From Sedimenticola sp. (GTDB lineage Bacteria > Pseudomonadota > Gammaproteobacteria > Chromatiales > Chromatiaceae), in NCBI GenBank assembly GCA_027083925.1, contig JALWMK010000106.1, positions 1 to 43,530 on the forward strand: a stretch of 43,530 bases of DNA, given 5' to 3'. Numbering within the stretch: the first letter of the stretch is position 1; every line of letters begins with the position of its first letter. The notes beneath the pieces are model-generated. The model was not told the origin of the DNA. It worked only from the letters and a program-made list of their open reading frames with translations, and did no database searches. This document shows positions 1 through 43,047 of the stretch, one piece after another. The position numbers were made by a program, and so were the translations under genes.

Positions 1-48
1 TTCAAATCGCATTTTCCGGATCTCCTGTAGCAATTCTGTTGGTCTCAT
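1..48 (-). CDS. Transposase N-terminus (ISNCY/IS1202-like), cut by window edge
   Basis: Only the first 16 codons are inside the window, reading leftward from the ATG at 48-46. The peptide begins MRPTELLQEIRKMRFE, and a strong AGGAGGTGA ribosome site sits just upstream. From memory this resembles the start of ISNCY-type transposases, which continue into a helix-turn-helix; that is recognition, not a search. The position directly inside a broken attC site supports a mobile element. The rest of the gene lies outside the window. Confidence 0.5.
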   Translation of the reverse strand, partial: MRPTELLQEIRKMRFE

Positions 49-112
49 AATTCACCTCCTGGGTGAATATGAAACCGGACAGATCGTGTGCTACAACTCC
101 GGACAGTTTATT
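1..112 (-). mobile_element. End of an insertion sequence inserted into an integron attC site
   Basis: The leftward transposase start at 48 and its leader occupy this stretch. The leader carries two related copies of a CTGTCCGG motif about 30 bp apart (79-106 region), as expected for terminal or transposase-binding repeats. The sequence beyond about 113 returns to attC. The exact terminus cannot be fixed with only one end visible. Confidence 0.45.
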
Positions 113-133
113 TGCTCGTAACACTTGTTATGT
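113..133 (-). other. attC7 remnant, interrupted by insertion sequence
   Basis: Read leftward, this gives CACATAACAAG and a few more bases, a canonical R'' box and L'' arm. The box GTTATGTGC on the plus strand (127-135) matches the start of cassette 7 at 1028-1020. The rest of the site is missing and insertion-sequence DNA follows, so the site was split. Confidence 0.65.
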
Positions 134-412: not shown

Positions 413-997
413 TCAGAAGCCACCTCCCTCGTGGTGAGAATTTAGACTGCTTCTTAGATTGTGCAATGATCTAATGGCTCTATTGCAGTCGCTCATTTCA
501 TATATTTGCCATTCCCTTTGCTCCAAAAGCATTAAATGCTCACCATTTCGGACATCCCAGACCCAATCTATATCTTCTTTTAACTCTTCAGAAATAATAT
601 TTTCTTCTACAAGAACCTGACTTCGGTATTTGTAATTTTGGCCACCGCCACGCCTGCCTCTAAGATAGCACTTTGTTACACTTTCTATTATTGATCCAAT
701 TGAACTGATTTCTTTCTTTATAAGCATTTCTTTTGCTTGACCACTAATGTCTGTCCGATTTAGCAACCAGCGAAAAAGATCCGTTAGTAATAATGTATAT
801 GCGATATTACTTCTTAAAGTGTGGTCAGAAATAAATAGATACTTGTTTCTATGCTCTACGCAAGTTCGTAGGTATCCTCTTGGAAATCTAACAACTCCAT
901 TTTTGTGATTTCGTTCGCCTAGATAATCATTTATTGCCTGTATTTTTTCTCCTACTTCCGTAGCAACTAAAAATAATTCATTGTCATTTTCTATCAT
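413..997 (-). CDS. Hypothetical cassette protein, possibly HEPN-like
   Basis: This is the 194-aa product of cassette 7. The frame extends upstream to 1057, but that part lies in attC6, so the ATG at 997 (MIENDNELFL) is preferred; its ribosome site is weak. The protein looks mostly helical and ends with a segment WDVRNGEHLMLLEQREW. An Arg-Asn pair followed by His in the C-terminal half recalls HEPN RNase or dimerisation domains, but the spacing is not the textbook one, so this is only a hint. There is no signal peptide or membrane segment. Base composition is A+T-richer than the chromosome to the right, consistent with capture from elsewhere. Confidence 0.6.
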   Translation of the reverse strand: MIENDNELFLVATEVGEKIQAINDYLGERNHKNGVVRFPRGYLRTCVEHRNKYLFISDHTLRSNIAYTLLLTDLFRWLLNRTDISGQAKEMLIKKEISSIGSIIESVTKCYLRGRRGGGQNYKYRSQVLVEENIISEELKEDIDWVWDVRNGEHLMLLEQREWQIYEMSDCNRAIRSLHNLRSSLNSHHEGGGF

Positions 998-1021
998 ATG
1001 GTCTGACCATCTTGTTTTTGC

Positions 1022-1137
1022 ACATAACGTCTTGCTAACTGGCAGATAGCTTAGCACAGCTTTTGTGTGATAATGAGCGATAGCGAATACACAAAAGATG
1101 GGCTGAGTTAGCTGTCAAGTTGAGCAACTTGTTAGGT
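1022..1137 (-). other. attC6 recombination site
   Basis: Boxes are R' ACATAAC (plus strand 1022-1028) and R'' GTTAGGT (1131-1137). Between them, inverted arms fold into the usual imperfect hairpin: the leftward strand reads AAGTTGCTCAACTTGACAGC on one side and a matching CAGTTAGCAAGACG on the other. The site follows the DJ-1-like gene and is about 116 bp. Confidence 0.85.
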
Positions 1138-1187: not shown

Positions 1188-1769
1188 TTACTCACTCCAT
1201 ATGCCGTTTTTAAATAATTGAAACCATTTTTCAATATCTGTTTCGTTTTTTAGTTTTACTTCTTTAAATACTTCTCTTGCAAACTCAATAGGTGAAATTC
1301 CATTTGCCGTTATTATATTTTTATCAGTTACTGATAGGTCAGGCTGATATAATTTTTCGCCTTTATATTCGGGAGCCATATATTTCAAATAATCTAATGC
1401 GTTACTCGTATGTTTTACATTGTCCAAGTAGCCTTTTTGACCTAAAAATACTGTTGCGCCACATATTCCAGCTATTGTTTTATTATTAGAGTGCAAAGTT
1501 TCTACAAGTTTATCTATTCCTTTTATGCTTTTGTCTTCCCAAGCGCTTCCACCTGGTAAAATCAAAACCGAAATATCATCTAGGTTTAATTGTTTGATTG
1601 ATAAATCGGGACTGATTTTAAGCCCACCAGCAGAGGTAATATCTGAACCATCAATAGTAAAATATTTTAAGTCGGTTTTTTCACTTTTTTTCAGTTCGGG
1701 AGCTAGATACGCTATCTCCCAATCTGAATATCCATCGAAGAGAAAAACATAAATGTTTTCTTTATTCAT
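1188..1769 (-). CDS. DJ-1/PfpI family (type 1 glutamine amidotransferase-like) protein
   Basis: The 193-aa protein has the class I glutamine amidotransferase/DJ-1 fold signature. The nucleophile elbow AGICGA puts the reactive cysteine at C103, preceded by the strand and glycine turn ILPGGSAWE (about 70-78). Glu18, in DWEIA, fits the conserved acidic residue that supports the cysteine in DJ-1 relatives. Members include protein deglycases, chaperones and stress proteins; the exact activity here is unknown. An AGGGG ribosome site precedes the ATG. The gene is clearly A+T-rich, with codon use closer to Firmicutes or Bacteroidetes than to this chromosome. It is the cargo of cassette 6. Confidence 0.85.
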   Translation of the reverse strand: MNKENIYVFLFDGYSDWEIAYLAPELKKSEKTDLKYFTIDGSDITSAGGLKISPDLSIKQLNLDDISVLILPGGSAWEDKSIKGIDKLVETLHSNNKTIAGICGATVFLGQKGYLDNVKHTSNALDYLKYMAPEYKGEKLYQPDLSVTDKNIITANGISPIEFAREVFKEVKLKNETDIEKWFQLFKNGIWSE

Positions 1770-1801: not shown

Positions 1802-1955
1802 ATTATACGCTGTGCCTCCTGACACCGTACTGTCAGGAGCAAATAATATTTTGAAGTACACTCCCACTTTTACATGGTTTTGTATAGAAAAAACCTCTAT
1901 TGAGGCTTATAATTTATGCTTTTGCGTCGCAGAGATCTAACCTTATTCGTTAGGC
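1802..1955 (-). other. attC5, degenerate or partly deleted
   Basis: The R'' box GTTAGGC (1949-1955) is canonical and matches the start of cassette 5 at 2543-2537. No convincing R' partner exists. The best candidates are GTATAAT (leftward, 1808-1802) or GTTAGAT (1941-1935), the latter only 8 bases from R''. A perfect 9-bp stem with a 6-base loop lies inside at 1816-1839. Either the site is a long degenerate attC or an internal deletion removed part of it. Confidence 0.5.
1816..1839. repeat. Perfect 9-bp hairpin
   Basis: CTCCTGACA and TGTCAGGAG flank a six-base loop, about 45 bases upstream of the DJ-1-like gene. There is no T-run on either side. It may be part of the attC5 fold or a cassette terminator. 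Confidence 0.6.
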
Positions 1956-2525
1956 TTTATATCCATAATTTTTAGCTACAGACACCCATTTGTCTCTTTG
2001 TTTTTCGCTTGACTCTTTGATTGTGGCAAACTCTGTTATACGAATCACCTTGATACCACAAAACCCTAGGATTGTGTTTTTCATTGCGTTGTGCCCTGGT
2101 CTACGGTATATAAAACGGTAGTACCAAGGTGGTGTATCCATAGTAACAAACAGGTGCGCAGTGCGTCCCAACAACAATTTATCCCAAAATTGGGAGTTTT
2201 CCCTATATTTGAATGCAAATCCTGGCAAGAAAGCACGGTCAAAAAATCCTTTCATTACAGCTGGCATGGTTCCCCACCAGTTAGGATAAATAAAAACAAT
2301 ATGCTGAGACCATTTGATTAGTTCTTGAGCTCTTAATAAATCTGTCTCAAGCTCTTGAACTTCTTTATATCCTTTCCATAATACTGGATCAAAATCTAGT
2401 TCACCTAGATTCAGTTCGCGTACTTCTGAGCCGTTGGATTTTGCTCCATCGGTATATGCTTTTGCCAATGAGCCACAGAAACTATTTTTATCTGGGTGCC
2501 CAAGAACAACGAGTATTTTTTTCAT
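1950..2525 (-). CDS. Flavodoxin-fold NAD(P)H:quinone oxidoreductase
   Basis: The 191-aa protein belongs to the Flavodoxin_2/NQO1-like group (relatives of KefF and MdaB), which use FMN or FAD and NAD(P)H for two-electron reduction of quinones. Visible signatures are the N-terminal strand and phosphate loop ILVVLGHPDKNSFCGSLA (4-21), the flavin-binding YPNWWGTMPAVMKGFFDR (about 80-97) and PGFAFKY (101-107). Length is normal. The ATG lies about 15 bases from the attC4 core with no clear ribosome site, so translation may be leaderless or start from a cassette-spanning transcript. Its stop overlaps R'' of attC5. It is the cargo of cassette 5 and has an A+T-rich look. Confidence 0.88.
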   Translation of the reverse strand: MKKILVVLGHPDKNSFCGSLAKAYTDGAKSNGSEVRELNLGELDFDPVLWKGYKEVQELETDLLRAQELIKWSQHIVFIYPNWWGTMPAVMKGFFDRAFLPGFAFKYRENSQFWDKLLLGRTAHLFVTMDTPPWYYRFIYRRPGHNAMKNTILGFCGIKVIRITEFATIKESSEKQRDKWVSVAKNYGYKA

Positions 2526-2536
2526 AGTATTTTTTA

Positions 2537-2600
2537 GCCTAACGTGATAGCTAACTGGCGCGCCTTTTTTGGCGCGTCCACGTTGAGCGTCTTGTTAGCC
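2537..2600 (-). other. attC4 recombination site
   Basis: This is a textbook short site of 64 bp. R' is GCCTAAC (plus 2537-2543) and R'' is GTTAGCC (2594-2600). The arms pair through GGCGCGCC and GGCGCG with an A/T loop, giving a strong hairpin. R'' extended (GTTAGCCTTC) matches the cassette-4 start at 4345-4336. Confidence 0.92.
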
Positions 2601-2601
2601 T

Positions 2602-2904
2602 TCACATGCATCTATCTAACTCTTGTTTCAATATGACAAGTTGTGATTCAATCTTTGCGCTATTTTCCTTTTCAATTGGCATAAATGTCTCGTTGCTACG
2701 ATCAGAGAGGCGTTGGCAGTGCTCAGCAAGGTCGAGTAGAATAGAGTAGACAGTGCTGGTCTTTTCAAGACCAATAATTGTTCTCCAACGAACAATAGCT
2801 GCGCTCGATAACCCGGTTAATTGGTAATTGCTTGGTAGCTGAGCGTTAACTACAGAGAGAACACGCCGCTCAGCCGTAACTCTGTTGAGAAATGTATTTG
2901 TCAT
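2602..2904 (-). CDS. Small helical protein, third gene of cassette 4
   Basis: The 100-aa product begins MTNTFLNRVTAERR. The ATG at 2904 is preferred because GAGGAGAAA immediately precedes it. The frame overlaps the 3' end of the nucleotidyltransferase gene by 35 bp, so the two are translationally linked. The sequence is predicted helical and ends in a Lys/Glu-rich probable coiled coil (about 75-98). No family is recognised. Tight coupling to a nucleotidyltransferase suggests a partner or small regulatory subunit, but HEPN motifs are not visible. Confidence 0.65.
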   Translation of the reverse strand: MTNTFLNRVTAERRVLSVVNAQLPSNYQLTGLSSAAIVRWRTIIGLEKTSTVYSILLDLAEHCQRLSDRSNETFMPIEKENSAKIESQLVILKQELDRCM

Positions 2905-3517
2905 TTTCTCCTCGCAAAGACTCAATCCATGGGCTCAATGGGGCACGCGTAACTTTGTATACTACCGAATTAATATCGATTTCAATCTCTATGCCTCTTG
3001 TAGAGCTGTGCCTGGCTAACATGGCTGCTTTATAAGCGGAATAATCTAACGGGCATGGGATTGGGAGCCTGTAAGGTGCATCACTGGAAAAGCATGGCTT
3101 TTCCATAAAAGCCCAAGATGCCGACATCGCAATATCACGAATAGCCGTATAAACGATTCCCAATTCATAAATAACGCTCTTGGTTCCATTTTTCAGTTCA
3201 TAAAGCGCTTCCTGGAGCAACTCCTCTAGATCATCGATATCCTTATTCATGGTCGCATACGGTGCGGGCGCACCTAAAGCATCCAAAAATGGGGTGTCCC
3301 GGGTGCTAAAAATACACTTAGCCTCAAGGTGCAAATGCCACGCGAAAAGCCGGCCTTGAGAAAAGTACTCACCAATTATTTTGGGATCATAAACGCTCCA
3401 GTTAATTGGAAAATTCGAGCGATCATCAGTAAATGGTAATGCCAATATATCAACATCTGACGTTGGAGATGATTCACCTCTACAAAGTGAGCCAAATACA
3501 TAGATTTCGTGATTCAT
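2870..3517 (-). CDS. Nucleotidyltransferase-fold protein (Pol beta superfamily)
   Basis: The 215-aa protein opens with the nucleotidyltransferase signature: Gly-Ser at 9-10, then SPTSDVDIL with metal-binding Asp21 and Asp23. The third acidic residue is not obvious; the stretch HLHLEAKC is the likely strand. The C-terminal half (about 95-170) is helical, resembling the all-alpha domain appended to aminoglycoside adenylyltransferases and MNT/HEPN pairs. Its ATG overlaps the stop of the pentapeptide gene by four bases (ATGA), so they are one operon. Candidate activities are AMP or NMP transfer to a protein, RNA or small molecule; the substrate is unknown. Resistance is possible but nothing specific supports it. 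Confidence 0.8.
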   Translation of the reverse strand: MNHEIYVFGSLCRGESSPTSDVDILALPFTDDRSNFPINWSVYDPKIIGEYFSQGRLFAWHLHLEAKCIFSTRDTPFLDALGAPAPYATMNKDIDDLEELLQEALYELKNGTKSVIYELGIVYTAIRDIAMSASWAFMEKPCFSSDAPYRLPIPCPLDYSAYKAAMLARHSSTRGIEIEIDINSVVYKVTRAPLSPWIESLRGENDKYISQQSYG

Positions 3518-4320
3518 CGTCTAGCTAACCGCTTTATTAGAATGGCCATAAATAATCCAACAAGCAAAAAGCGAAGAGCAGTAAGTGCTGCTAAATGTCC
3601 ATCTGGAACTGGTGGTGTGGTTGAAACTCCCCAGAATGCCTGCACAGATACTCGTAGTGACTCTGGCCATGAGAATTGGGGATATTGCCACGCAAGGTAT
3701 GCCCCCCATACAACAACAAGAAAAATTCCACAGCCAAGGACCCTGAAAATACTTTCGCCGTTACCCCACAACAAATCGAGTGCCTTCCACTGCAAATGCC
3801 TAACGGCATGATAAAGCCTATTCCAGCTTTTATACTTGGAACGGTAATATGACTGCTTCGAGTAGGCTGCGTTGAACAAATGTTGGCCTGTAAGTGCGAC
3901 CTCAATAGATGCCGCTTTATTAACTGCCGGATAATTTCCTACGTGACCGAAGTTAACACGTAAAGTACGAACAAGATCCCGCGCCAGATTCTCTTCACTA
4001 GGAAGACATCTGTCTAAAAATTCTTCATCAAGATATGTATGCTCCCAAGTCGAATAATGGAATTTGCACTCTTCGTATTGTGATCCTCTAAAATTAGACT
4101 TGGAAATATTGGCACCTGTGAAATCACACCTAATGAAGCGACAATTTCGAAAGTAGCATTGTGAGAATTCCGCTTGCTTAAATTTAACACCTACAAAGGT
4201 TTTGCCAACGGCATAAACGCGCCTTAACACTTTCTGCGTTAAATCTTCATCTCGAACATCGGAAACGATCTCCTTGTCCTCGATAACTGGCTTGGAATGG
4301 TCAACTAGTTCCATATTCAT
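3514..4320 (-). CDS. Pentapeptide-repeat protein with C-terminal channel-like membrane domain
   Basis: The 268-aa protein has a soluble N-terminus, a short pentapeptide-repeat stretch (about 41-88, repeats such as CRFIR, CDFTG, SNFRG, CKFHY), a helical linker, and a C-terminal two-helix membrane unit. Hydrophobic segments fall at about 192-211 and 244-262. Between them, SVQAFWGVSTTPPVP resembles the re-entrant pore loop of two-TM ion channels. This arrangement is seen in pentapeptide proteins fused to ion-channel domains and would put the repeats in the cytoplasm as a sensor. It is the first gene of cassette 4 and is coupled to the nucleotidyltransferase by a 4-base overlap. The channel assignment is inference. 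Confidence 0.78.
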   Translation of the reverse strand: MNMELVDHSKPVIEDKEIVSDVRDEDLTQKVLRRVYAVGKTFVGVKFKQAEFSQCYFRNCRFIRCDFTGANISKSNFRGSQYEECKFHYSTWEHTYLDEEFLDRCLPSEENLARDLVRTLRVNFGHVGNYPAVNKAASIEVALTGQHLFNAAYSKQSYYRSKYKSWNRLYHAVRHLQWKALDLLWGNGESIFRVLGCGIFLVVVWGAYLAWQYPQFSWPESLRVSVQAFWGVSTTPPVPDGHLAALTALRFLLVGLFMAILIKRLARR

Positions 4321-4338
4321 CTACCTAGGATAGAAGAA

Positions 4339-4457
4339 GGCTAACGCCATGCTCAGCGGCTGGCTAAAGTGGCGGGGGTTTGTGCCATAATGGAGCGACA
4401 GCGGAATGGCACAAACAACCGACGCTTTAGACAGTCCGCTGGAGCTATTTGTTATGC
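4339..4457 (-). other. attC3 recombination site
   Basis: R' is GGCTAAC (plus 4339-4345) and R'' is GTTATGC (4451-4457), about 119 bp apart. The arms pair (TCAGCGG/CCGCTGG) and an inner inverted pair, GTTTGTGCC and GGCACAAAC (about 4378-4412), makes a second stem. R'' plus one base matches the cassette-3 start at 5245-5238. Confidence 0.88.
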
Positions 4458-4469
4458 GGTGAATACAAT

Positions 4470-5204
4470 TCAACTTGCATCTTTGGTTGAGGTACTGAAA
4501 ACAGTTCTGAATTTCTCACCCTGGCGCACTCTTAACAACATGGAATATAATGCTTTTGGAGAATATATGCTCCATATTTCCTGGACTGCTGCCTTTGCCC
4601 CACGATAATTTTTGACATCTTGCTCTTTGGTACTGGTCCAGAACTTGGACGGGCTATTGAGTGTTTTTACCCTCTCGATTTCACGTTGATCGAATAATTT
4701 ATAGTCAACCTCATAGCGTTCTCGATAGTCAACCTGCATTGCAACTCCCTCATCAAACCAAGTTGGTATTTTGGTCTGGTAAGCCCAGTAACCCAATACA
4801 TCCCTCATTTGCGCGTGCATCAATTCGTGAGCCAGCAAATTTATATCAATCGTTTGATTGTTAATCACTATATATTCTTCCCAAGGCGCAGCAAATGCTT
4901 TGCCGGGGAAAACCCCCAGACCATACTTTTTTGAATTTTTGGTAGCTCCTGTGATAACTATCGTTGGCGTAGCTGAAAATGAGCCATATTTCTCTATAAT
5001 CCTGTCCTTCGAACGGCTCAATAAATCAAGAACACCCTTATACTCTTCTCTATCAATATTTGGATCTATATAGATTTTCTCAGAAACATTATTGAAATCA
5101 GAATATTCTATGGTTGAGAGCCAAAACACATGCGTATAAGCGACCGCTGTGCCTGTAAATATGAGAGCTGCAAGACCAATTCCAATTATTGATAGTTTTC
5201 TCAT
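4470..5204 (-). CDS. Membrane-anchored HExxH (gluzincin-type) metallopeptidase
   Basis: The 244-aa protein starts with a Lys/Arg N-terminus and a hydrophobic segment (residues 5-22), either a signal peptide or an N-terminal anchor. The zinc motif HELMH is at 126-130, and a conserved WFDEG puts a third-ligand Glu at 152, the spacing expected of MA-clan gluzincins. The remaining domain is extracytoplasmic by inference. A GGGGTGA ribosome site supports the ATG. It is the only gene of cassette 3. Substrate is unknown; it could act on cell-envelope or external proteins. Confidence 0.85.
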   Translation of the reverse strand: MRKLSIIGIGLAALIFTGTAVAYTHVFWLSTIEYSDFNNVSEKIYIDPNIDREEYKGVLDLLSRSKDRIIEKYGSFSATPTIVITGATKNSKKYGLGVFPGKAFAAPWEEYIVINNQTIDINLLAHELMHAQMRDVLGYWAYQTKIPTWFDEGVAMQVDYRERYEVDYKLFDQREIERVKTLNSPSKFWTSTKEQDVKNYRGAKAAVQEIWSIYSPKALYSMLLRVRQGEKFRTVFSTSTKDAS

Positions 5205-5238: not shown

Positions 5239-5360
5239 GCATAACGCTGAAGCTAACCGGCGCCCACACTACGCCACCAAACGGGGGCAATGCCAACCAA
5301 CTCGCCGCCAGCACAAGCGGCGGTGCGAAGCACAGCGTCCGGTTGAGAGACTTGTTATGT
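5239..5360 (-). other. attC2 recombination site
   Basis: R' is GCATAAC (plus 5239-5245) and R'' is GTTATGT (5354-5360). Outer arms CTAACCGGCGC and GCGTCCGGTTGAG pair, and an inner GC-rich section extends the stem. R'' extended to GTTATGTGG equals the cassette-2 start at 5763-5755. Confidence 0.9.
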
Positions 5361-5756: not shown

Positions 5757-5816
5757 ACATAACGATACAACTCAGCCGCGCCGTTTTTTGGCGTCGGCTG
5801 GAGTGCCTTGTTAATG
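5757..5816 (-). other. attC1 recombination site
   Basis: This compact 60-bp site closes the first cassette. R' is ACATAAC (plus 5757-5763) and R'' is GTTAATG (5810-5816). The arms CAGCCGCGCC and GGCGTCGGCTG pair across a short T-rich loop. R'' extended, GTTAATGTTC, is the exact complement-matched partner of the attI junction at 6828-6819. Confidence 0.93.
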
Positions 5817-6800
5817 TTCGTTTTCATCATCACGTAAATTCTCGATGATTATGTCACATGTTGAATAATAATAGCTCGACTCATGCGACTTCATAATGGC
5901 GGGATATGTATTGTTAGGCTTGGCATTCTTGTCAAACTCGTATTTAAAGCGCAAAGAGTGATAATACTGCTCGTCTAAATATATCTGCATAGGTGGGTGT
6001 ATCCCGGCCTTAATGGCTTCTTTTGCTGTCTTCTCAATTGCCAGCAACTCAGCAAAAGGAACCCCTAAACTATTTAAGCAAACATGATTGTTCGACTTGG
6101 AAATATGAAGTAATGATTCGCCATAGTATTCATTACTACCCTGCGTTAGTACTGCATATATTTCTAGACCAAGAACTTGCCGGTAAATAGCATCAATTTC
6201 TTTTACTACATGCAAAAATATTTCTGGTCTATATGAGCAATCTATCCCTTTGCGATAATAGCCTACATCCCAATTACTTTTCATAATCAGGCTATCGGCA
6301 AAGGAAATGAATGATATATCCTTGTGGTTCTCAGCAAGCTCATCAATCTTTTCTCTTAGCTTAATAAGCTTATCCCTGCTGAGACGATTATTTCTAATTG
6401 CTTCTTTTACCCCTATAGCATCAACCAACACAAATACGGAGTATTCTCTTATGTGAAGTTGCTCCAACCATTCATGATCTACAAAAATATATGGTTTCTG
6501 GTCGTACTGCCAGCAGCCTACACATACCTTTACTTTGTCCCGAGGAAGAGTGATTGAAACTTCGTGAAACCTCGTGTGCGTATTTGCGTACCATGACAAC
6601 TCTAATGAGTTATCGTTGATTCTTCTCACAGCCACCGGACTGACAAAGCCTACTTCGTAAGGATTGCACTCCTCTCCACGAAGCATTTTGTTTAGGGCTT
6701 CTTCGTACTCCTCCATATAGATTTCGCTCATGAGAAAGCAATCTCTATCAAGCGGAATTTCCTCAAATGAGTATTTATCTATATCGCTGTTGTCAAACAA
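5811..6800 (-). CDS. Unrecognised 329-aa protein, first cassette of the integron
   Basis: This is the attI-proximal cassette gene, usually the best expressed. The start is TTG at 6800, chosen because AGGAG lies nine bases upstream; a fallback is ATG at residue 24. The stop TAA falls in the R'' box of attC1. There is no signal peptide or membrane helix. The middle has a hydrophobic strand with acidic ends, VFVLVDAIG (122-130), and then SFISFADSLIM (163-173). Two strand-borne Asp residues in this order resemble the metal-binding core of class III nucleotide cyclases, but the match is short and I do not assign a function. Confidence 0.75.
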   Translation of the reverse strand: MFDNSDIDKYSFEEIPLDRDCFLMSEIYMEEYEEALNKMLRGEECNPYEVGFVSPVAVRRINDNSLELSWYANTHTRFHEVSITLPRDKVKVCVGCWQYDQKPYIFVDHEWLEQLHIREYSVFVLVDAIGVKEAIRNNRLSRDKLIKLREKIDELAENHKDISFISFADSLIMKSNWDVGYYRKGIDCSYRPEIFLHVVKEIDAIYRQVLGLEIYAVLTQGSNEYYGESLLHISKSNNHVCLNSLGVPFAELLAIEKTAKEAIKAGIHPPMQIYLDEQYYHSLRFKYEFDKNAKPNNTYPAIMKSHESSYYYSTCDIIIENLRDDENEH

Positions 6801-6821: not shown

Positions 6822-6893
6822 CATTAACAGTTGATTATCACGCCGGCACTAAATATCGTGATACCCGGCCGGCACTGATATTGTAATACCCCG
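6822..6893. other. attI-like region with cassette junction and two near-direct repeats
   Basis: The junction core (CATTAAC, 6822-6828) is where cassette 1 begins, shown by its match to R'' of attC1. Next to it lie two near-identical units starting GCCGGCACT at 6842-6867 and 6868-6893, each ending in ATACCC. Class 1 attI carries similar direct repeats as extra integrase-binding sites, so that role is inferred. IS21-type terminal repeats are an alternative. Confidence 0.65.
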
Positions 6894-6909
6894 CCAAATG
6901 TTCTATAGT
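6881..6909 (+). promoter_or_regulatory. Probable sigma-70 promoter of the integrase gene
   Basis: TTGTAA at 6881-6886 and TATAGT at 6904-6909 are spaced by 17 bases. The -10 overlaps a possible GTG start at 6908, which argues for the ATG at 6953 as the true integrase start. Confidence 0.5.
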
Positions 6910-6952
6910 GGTTCTCCATAAGCAATTGGTTTCGCAAGGAGTGCTTAACCCA

Positions 6953-7630
6953 ATGGATTCTGTCGACCCACGTGTTGAACGGTTTTGGATGAATTATGCT
7001 GCCGTGCTGAAGCAATTCCGCATTTCTGGCAGCGCAATTCCCTGGTATCAGAAGCATATTCAGGGGTTTATCAACGATCACCCTTCTGTGCGCCTGGGAT
7101 CCCACACGCCTAAATCGTTGCAGGCCTGGCTGGAAGATATCGGTCGAAATCCAGCGGTACAGGACTGGCAGTTCTGCCAAAAAGTCGATGCTTTGCGCTT
7201 GTTGTTTGCACACTTCCTGAAACTGGATTGGGCGCTTCGATTTGACTGGGATGGCTGCGCAGGCAATGCCCAATCCCTGGGGAAGGATCATCCTACGGTT
7301 GCGCGGACTTATGAGATGATCGACAAAGCGGTCAGCGACCCACAAAATCCACTTGGAAAGGCGTTTCCTGATATTTATCGCAAGTTTCTGGTCGTCATGC
7401 GACTGTCTGATTACTCTCCGAATACCGAAAGGAGCTACCTCGGATGGATCAATAGATTCCTTGTTTTTCATCACCGCAAATATCCTTTTGACTGCTCGGA
7501 ACCGGAAGTTGCTTCCTTTTTAGAACATTTAGCCATAAAACGCAAAGTTTCTGGGGCTACTCAGGGGCAGGCACTCAATGCGCTGGTATTCTTTTTCGCA
7601 CGGGTTCATGCGCGGAAAATACCGCCATGA
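6953..7630 (+). pseudogene. intI: Integron integrase, truncated after the N-terminal domain
   Basis: The frame gives 225 aa from ATG 6953 (AAGGAG 11 bases upstream). Residues about 1-130 form an N-terminal extension seen in some long environmental IntI proteins. About 140-225 is the SAM-like DNA-binding domain of tyrosine recombinases, with SPNTERSYLGWINRFLVFH and ATQGQALNALVFFFARV typical of IntI. The protein stops there. The catalytic domain with its Arg, His, Arg and Tyr residues is absent in all frames before rlmH at 7668. It probably lost its 3' half by deletion and cannot catalyse recombination. It might still bind attI. Orientation and position relative to the cassettes are canonical. 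Confidence 0.88.
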
Positions 7631-7667: not shown

Positions 7668-8138
7668 ATGAACATCCATCTCATTGCCGTAGGTGACAAA
7701 ATGCCCCGCTGGGTACAGGAGGGCTATCAGGAATACGCCCGGCGGCTGCCCCCCGAGTGCGCGCTGAAGCTGCTGGAGATCAGCGCCAGGCACCGGGGCA
7801 AGAATGCCGATATTGCCCGCATCGCCCGCGACGAAGGCAGGGCGATGCTGAAAGCTATCCCCAGGAGCAGCCGGGTGATCGCCCTGGAGATCAACGGGCG
7901 CAGCTGGCGCACGGAAGACCTTGCCACGCTATTGCAAAACTGGATGGCGGACGGGCGGGATGTATCGTTGCTGGTGGGCGGCCCGGAGGGACTGGCGCCG
8001 GAGTGCCGGGAGCGGGCGGATCAGCTCTGGTCACTTTCTCCCTTGACTCTGCCACACCCCCTGGTGCGGGTGGTGATTGCGGAGCAGCTGTACCGGGCCT
8101 GGAGCATTCTTAACAACCACCCCTACCACCGCGCATGA
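7668..8138 (+). CDS. rlmH: 23S rRNA (pseudouridine1915-N3)-methyltransferase RlmH
   Basis: The 156-aa SPOUT methyltransferase methylates pseudouridine 1915 in helix 69 of 23S rRNA. Signatures are the start [15 protein letters not shown], the SAM-binding LLVGGPEGL, and the C-terminal [16 protein letters not shown] ending in HPYHR, which form the knotted active site. Length matches the family. Its stop overlaps the start of maf by four bases. The truncated integrase lies 37 bases upstream, so the integron deletion ended just before this essential-region gene. Confidence 0.97.
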
Positions 8139-42067: not shown

Positions 42068-42907
42068 ATGGCCGTATATGCCATCGGTGACATTCAGGGT
42101 TGCTATGACGAGCTGCAGGCGCTGCTCGGGCAACTGCAATTCGACCCGGCCAATGACCGGCTCTGGTTTGTCGGCGATTTGGTCAACCGGGGGCCTCAGT
42201 CACTGAACACCCTGCGCTTCGTCGCTTCACTGGGTGACCGGGCAATCACCGTGCTGGGGAACCATGACCTGCATCTGCTGGCGCTGGCCGCGGGCAACGA
42301 ACGCTTCCGCGATTCCGATGACCTCAATCAGGTGCTGGATGCGCCCGACCGCGACGAACTCATCCATTGGCTGCGTCACCGGCCCCTGATGCACCACGAT
42401 AAGCAGTTGAACTTCACCATGATCCATGCCGGTTTACCACCGCAGTGGGATCTGAAAACTGCCCAAGCCTGCGCCCGAGAAGTCGAAGCGGTGCTGCGCG
42501 AACCAGACTGTCAGGATTTCTTCGACCGGATGTACGGCAACAAACCCAACCGCTGGGATCCGGAGCTGACAGGCATGGGCCGCCTGCGTTTCATCACCAA
42601 CTGTTTCACCCGCCTGCGCTTCGTGACCAAAAAAGGCAAATTGAAGCTGAAACTGAAGGGCTCACCCCTGGGCCAGAAAAAGAAATACATACCCTGGTTT
42701 GCGCACCCCCAGCGGCTCACCAGAAACGACCGCATCCTGTTCGGTCACTGGTCCACCCTGGGCTATCAGCATGTGCAGAATACCTGGGCGCTGGATACGG
42801 GCTGTCTGTGGGGAGGCGCCCTGACGGCACTGCGCATCGACCAGGATCTGCCTTCACCCATTCAGCATCAGTGCCAGAGGCGGCAGGATCCGGCGATGTT
42901 TATATAA
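42068..42907 (+). CDS. apaH: Symmetrical bis(5'-nucleosyl)-tetraphosphatase
   Basis: The 279-aa metallophosphoesterase splits Ap4A to ADP. YAIGDIQGCYDEL, WFVGDLVNRGPQSL and VLGNHDLHLLALA give the metal and phosphate motifs. Its C-terminus has FGHWSTLGYQ and LDTGCLWGGALTALRID. Length and all ligands are intact. The apaG–apaH pair is typical of Gammaproteobacteria. Confidence 0.97.
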   Translation: MAVYAIGDIQGCYDELQALLGQLQFDPANDRLWFVGDLVNRGPQSLNTLRFVASLGDRAITVLGNHDLHLLALAAGNERFRDSDDLNQVLDAPDRDELIHWLRHRPLMHHDKQLNFTMIHAGLPPQWDLKTAQACAREVEAVLREPDCQDFFDRMYGNKPNRWDPELTGMGRLRFITNCFTRLRFVTKKGKLKLKLKGSPLGQKKKYIPWFAHPQRLTRNDRILFGHWSTLGYQHVQNTWALDTGCLWGGALTALRIDQDLPSPIQHQCQRRQDPAMFI

Positions 42908-42910
42908 GCA

Positions 42911-43035
42911 CTGGATCCCGGCCTGCGCCGGGATGACGACACTCCGTCATCCTGATTTCCTGTTCCACCTACCTATATGGAGTTGTGCTCCGATACAATA
43001 ATGCTCCGTCATTCTGGCGCATGCCAGAATCCATG
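42911..43035. repeat. Palindromic repeat left of the GIY-YIG gene
   Basis: GATCCCGGCCTGCGCCGGGATGACG forms a hairpin at about 42914-42936, followed by ACACTCCGTCAT and then a related TCCGTCATTCTGGCGCATGCCAGAATCC palindrome at about 43005-43032. The same words recur at 43380-43439. In my experience such units are found at many loci in proteobacterial genomes. Confidence 0.7.
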
Positions 43036-43047
43036 TATCACCAAGTC

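Follow-up and report, generated by a model that had tools for sequence, protein, structure and literature searches.

A probable deletion in a long-form integron integrase gene next to rlmH, and a second, complete integrase, in a Sedimenticola genome

Introduction

Does a cassette array become fixed once the integrase gene beside it has lost its catalytic part? The question is raised by a 43,530-nucleotide stretch of Sedimenticola sp. DNA (contig JALWMK010000106.1 of assembly GCA_027083925.1, hereafter the window), in which an integron integrase gene ends shortly before rlmH. A first-pass annotation, made from the letters of the window, had proposed that the promoter and N-terminus of the gene are intact, that its catalytic domain is gone, and that the array is fixed unless an integrase acts in trans.

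Decay of intI, multiple intI genes per genome and longer IntI proteins are already known. Inactive intI genes have been put at about one third, as pseudogenes (PMC2426708), and inactivated ones at 43-46% (PMC3108266). In an early survey of Xanthomonas most intI genes were predicted to be inactivated, some of them through large deletions (PMC12444791). Active integrases can bear a fitness cost, which is relieved by the loss of intI (PMC3510236). More than one fifth of integron carriers harbour at least two intI genes, and a fusion clade of IntI proteins about 120 aa longer was reported in 2008 (PMC2426708). Arrays that lack an integrase (CALIN) can be mobilised in trans (PMC12444791).

Results

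The integrase gene keeps only its N-terminal half

The features around the integrase gene are as follows.
6822..6916, strand not assigned: attI and integrase promoter region (core site GTTAATG at 6828-6822, minus strand)
6953..7630, plus strand: truncated long-form intI, 225 aa (IntI-derived bases 6953-7606)
6953..7342, plus strand: extra domain at the N-terminus (residues 1-130), a predicted second core-binding domain
7602..7606, plus strand: putative deletion join, covered at once by the IntI alignment, which ends at 7606, and by the alignment to the rlmH flank of a sister species, which starts at 7602
7607..7630, plus strand: seven flank-derived codons (HARKIPP, encoded by 7607-7627) and a stop, not IntI
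7668..8138, plus strand: rlmH, intact, with the conserved upstream TGTAAAAT element retained

The frame, for which a GTG at 6908 is an alternative start, corresponds to the N-terminal half of a long-form integron integrase and keeps 218 of about 460 residues. As the first-pass annotation had it, the frame ends after the SAM-like domain (7630) and rlmH begins 37 bp later (7668). The only Pfam domain found was the SAM-like core-binding domain of IntI type, Phage_int_SAM_4 (PF13495, E 3.7e-28), and the NCBIfam model integrase_gron (TIGR02249) was matched only at profile positions 7-83 of 315 (E 4.7e-20). PF00589 was not matched in the remnant, which lacks the R-K-H-R-H-Y catalytic domain. The IntI-specific additional domain, present in L006 and in the IntI of contig C93 described below, falls in the deleted part.

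Long IntI relatives, found both inside and outside this bacterial family, are each encoded by one uninterrupted frame of about 460 aa (458-468) and have every catalytic motif. They share 53-66% identity with the remnant across the common part, and the 66% is to the protein of genome G021. Alignment to these full-length proteins thus indicates that about half of the protein is truly absent rather than just unrecognised. When the catalytic half of a relative was compared by tblastn with the whole 43.5-kb window, no credible match appeared, as expected from the earlier claim that the catalytic part is gone. The same query against the rest of the genome found only the C93 IntI, XerC and XerD; therefore, the lost half does not lie on another contig, and a search for a catalytic half moved elsewhere or stranded at a contig end found none. 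The remaining open reading frame is most likely a pseudogene without recombinase activity, and comparison with the relatives gives good support to the loss of the integrase in cis from the array.

The end of the remnant joins the flank of rlmH

Similarity to IntI stops at the Val codon 7604-7606. A sister species (G009), with 97% identity in RlmH, matches the DNA of the window from 7602 through rlmH to 16162. Since IntI homology reaches 7606 and the G009 flank starts at 7602, HARKIPP is that flank read in frame. Bases 7602-7606, common to both sides, form the pattern expected of a short-homology deletion, and the comparison suggests that such an event may have removed the 3′ half of the gene; a search for a close relative with an undeleted long intI at rlmH found none. 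The TGTAAAAT element directly before rlmH is present in most of the genus members compared, and because it was kept the expression of rlmH need not suffer. An integron between rsfS and rlmH was also considered and rejected: rsfS lies on contig C145, where an htpX-like gene and further host genes come next, and no array.

The junction might instead be an artefact of assembly or binning, with a real full-length long intI whose contig was misjoined to the rlmH contig at 7600-7607. The genome is a draft of 176 contigs, and integrons and repeats frequently break assemblies. However, the missing catalytic half is on no other contig despite a completeness of 98.8%, rlmH and the 8.5 kb beyond it match G009 without a break, and G009 likewise has integron remains directly 5′ of rlmH. 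A misjoin therefore appears quite improbable, and a genuine deletion is the preferred reading.

The remains in G009 (contig C33, L050 8684-8881 and upstream) include a decayed short-form intI fragment just 5′ of rlmH, which is 37-41% identical to the C93 IntI (E 4e-11). A C93-type attC (L050 9687-9773) accompanies them, as does a series of open reading frames pointing away. With integron remains at rlmH in both species, the rlmH flank has carried platforms of different types in the two. Elsewhere in G009 (C10:145083-145298) there is a separate fragment of a long-form IntI N-domain, in a frame of 114 aa.

The attI and promoter region

The stretch 6825-6916 is 76% identical to that of the intact long-form integron of G021, with which the attI/promoter region also has imperfect GCCGGC-type repeats in common. 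The claim of an intact promoter is favoured by this conservation, but the single sigma-70-like match, the candidate at 6881-6909, agrees at 9 of 12 positions, and about one such match is expected by chance. That part of the annotation is the weaker one.

The extra N-terminal domain

The first 130 residues of the remnant gave a weak Pfam match (E 0.11), and profile-profile comparison matched them to the core-binding domain (E 8.5e-5). In the predicted model of the remnant (mean pLDDT 78, pTM 0.48) the helices recur 130 residues further on. With Foldseek alone, a match was obtained for the second domain only; the extra one surfaced with VIA-align, where residues 7-104 resembled XerA (Z 11.1) and XerD (Z 8.7) in their core-binding domains, scores that are only suggestive for helical bundles. 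These comparisons point to a duplicated core-binding domain. The second domain (residues 136-221) aligns with Vibrio cholerae IntI4 (PDB 2A3V, Z 13.4), a structure without the extra N-terminal domain. The long-form N-domain is present in 33 of 57 genomes of the family, and about 11 of the 37 hits with E below 1e-10 fall in frames whose length is insufficient for a full IntI; some of these may be contig ends.

Could the remnant have been kept because it still binds DNA, as a catalytically inactive competitor or regulator of a second, active IntI of the same cell at attI or attC? Its 218 IntI codons are free of stops and, at 66% identity to G021, still open, and its predicted model has two core-binding folds. 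A recent truncation explains the open frame equally well, though, and no conserved truncated form of such length was found: broken relatives break at differing points. Moreover, isolated core-binding domains usually bind DNA weakly. Such a role is highly improbable, and we continue to regard the remnant as a likely pseudogene.

The cassette array

The array runs along the minus strand and leads away from intI.
5811..6800, minus strand: cassette 1 ORF, 329 aa, unmatched in Pfam
5757..5816, minus strand: attC 1
5239..5360, minus strand: attC 2
4470..5204, minus strand: cassette 3 ORF, 244 aa, weak peptidase-like match
4339..4457, minus strand: attC 3
2602..4320, minus strand: cassette 4, with a pentapeptide-repeat protein, a nucleotidyltransferase-like protein and a third ORF
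2537..2600, minus strand: attC 4
1950..2525, minus strand: cassette 5, flavodoxin-like NAD(P)H oxidoreductase
1935..1955, minus strand: attC 5, collapsed, with R″ and R′ 7 nt apart
1188..1769, minus strand: cassette 6, DJ-1/PfpI family protein
1022..1137, minus strand: attC 6
413..1057, minus strand: cassette 7 ORF, 214 aa, unmatched in Pfam
127..133, minus strand: R″ of attC 7 (ACATAAC); the site seems interrupted before the contig end

The strict pattern RYYYAAC/GTTRRRY recovered none of the real attC sites, which were recovered by relaxed, fold-based scans. Since 34.5 kb of control sequence yielded 28 chance sites in the loosest scan, attC sites in the window were accepted only with a cassette-start match or from a tighter scan. 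Five good sites resulted, all on the minus strand, with R″/R′ and L″/L′ pairing and a single orientation away from intI; one further site is collapsed and one is cut near the IS-like contig end. All six cassettes tested begin with seven bases that are exactly complementary to the R″ box of their own attC, the signature of genuine cassette insertion. The array has at least seven cassettes, and their products are mostly small accessory proteins or proteins without a known family. Having more than one attC site but lacking a complete integrase close by, it has the makeup of a CALIN.

At attC 5 (1955-1935), between cassettes 5 and 6, the normal attC hairpin should no longer form. In window positions 1-133 the interrupted attC 7 is followed by short repeats and a transposase-like start (MRPTELLQEIRKMRFE), the frame of which begins at position 48; this end is probably an IS copy that terminated the contig. 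Other short repeats, at 42900-43040 of the window and at 1-110 of L051 (CGTCATTCTGGCG...CCAGAATCC; GGATCCCGGC...GCCGGGATGAC), are common to a genus member and apparently belong to a dispersed repeat.

A second, complete integrase in the same genome

The reading of a fixed array had depended on there being no second complete integrase in the genome, and that part does not hold. A genome-wide search for a second intI found one on contig C93 (5272-6237), encoding an IntI of 321 aa that scores 491.9 bits against TIGR02249 (cut-off 265). The protein aligns over its full length with Vibrio IntI4 (2A3V), and the R, K, H-R-H and Y residues are in place. The gene adjoins mnmG, next to which an IntI is found in four genomes of the genus (G000, which is the genome analysed here, G001, G008 and G009). 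The C93 protein is 96% identical to the G008 copy, and the dN/dS of 0.043 indicates strong purifying selection. It faces an attC at C93 2528-2436 followed by a type II restriction endonuclease cassette; full-length IntI, catalytic residues and attC together make this platform a complete integron. From its motifs and conservation, the C93 IntI is very probably functional. The restriction endonuclease of the C93 array (1633-2406) is Eco47II-like, and the array also encodes (2752-5094, L056) an ATPase-like protein of 780 aa that weakly matches defence families.

Whether the window array is frozen hinges on the putative trans activity of the C93 IntI on its attC sites. A complete freeze, in which the array is beyond the reach of the local remnant and of the C93 integrase alike, agrees with the lack of an integrase in cis and with the attC sequences, which differ: the arms in the window are of the CTCAA or CTCCAG type, those of C93 are GCCATAAAC...GGTTATGGC. 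Against it stand the complete IntI under selection and the finding that IntI proteins read attC mainly through hairpin structure and can work in trans on CALINs (PMC12444791, PMC2727003). A frozen array is thus possible but rather unlikely. Of the original claim, the absence of an integrase in cis stands; fixation is called into question by the complete, selected IntI on C93.

Discussion

The window very likely holds a degenerate chromosomal integron in which the 3′ half of a long-form intI was deleted, leaving a likely pseudogene and a CALIN-like array that could potentially be mobilised in trans by the C93 IntI. The proposed deletion would have reached to about 66 bp before the start of rlmH and taken the linker, all catalytic residues and the 3′ flank. 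It would have spared the cassette array, attI with the promoter region, and the N-terminal half of intI. A separate complete short-form IntI with its own attC persists next to mnmG. The array would then be an integrase-less satellite, whose cassettes may be lost or exchanged in trans by attC x attC recombination. An attI is normally matched to its own integrase, so fresh insertion at the attI of the window would be less likely.

Several known systems resemble this arrangement. Xanthomonas chromosomal integrons (PMC12444791) are, like the one in the window, sedentary platforms at a fixed chromosomal site with the array kept. Their intI genes were lost through large deletions, stops or frameshifts, and the integron in the window has likewise lost intI function; unlike them, it shares its genome with a second complete platform. 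In the CALIN of IntegronFinder (PMC9024848), too, at least two attC sites occur and a complete integrase is not detectable next to them, whereas the array in the window is still joined to the 5′ half of intI, with attI and the promoter region. In the literature on IntI proteins with duplicated or extra domains, the only directly relevant source found was PMC2426708. Its long 'gene fusion' clade 15 is like the family of the remnant in length (about 120-140 aa longer) and in conservation across species, but was described mainly from Deltaproteobacteria, and the remnant family is gammaproteobacterial. What is new here is the putative deletion join, the predicted duplicated core-binding domain and, in the sister species, a second ruined integron at rlmH.

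The truncation is an ordinary, well-documented type of integron decay and not proof of a frozen array. It adds another chromosomal integron with a decayed integrase, from a bacterial family in which long-form IntIs occur often, and indicates that the whole genome should be searched before an array is declared frozen. With its dead and its live platform, whose attC types differ, the genome offers a natural setting in which to measure the trans mobilisation of an orphan array.
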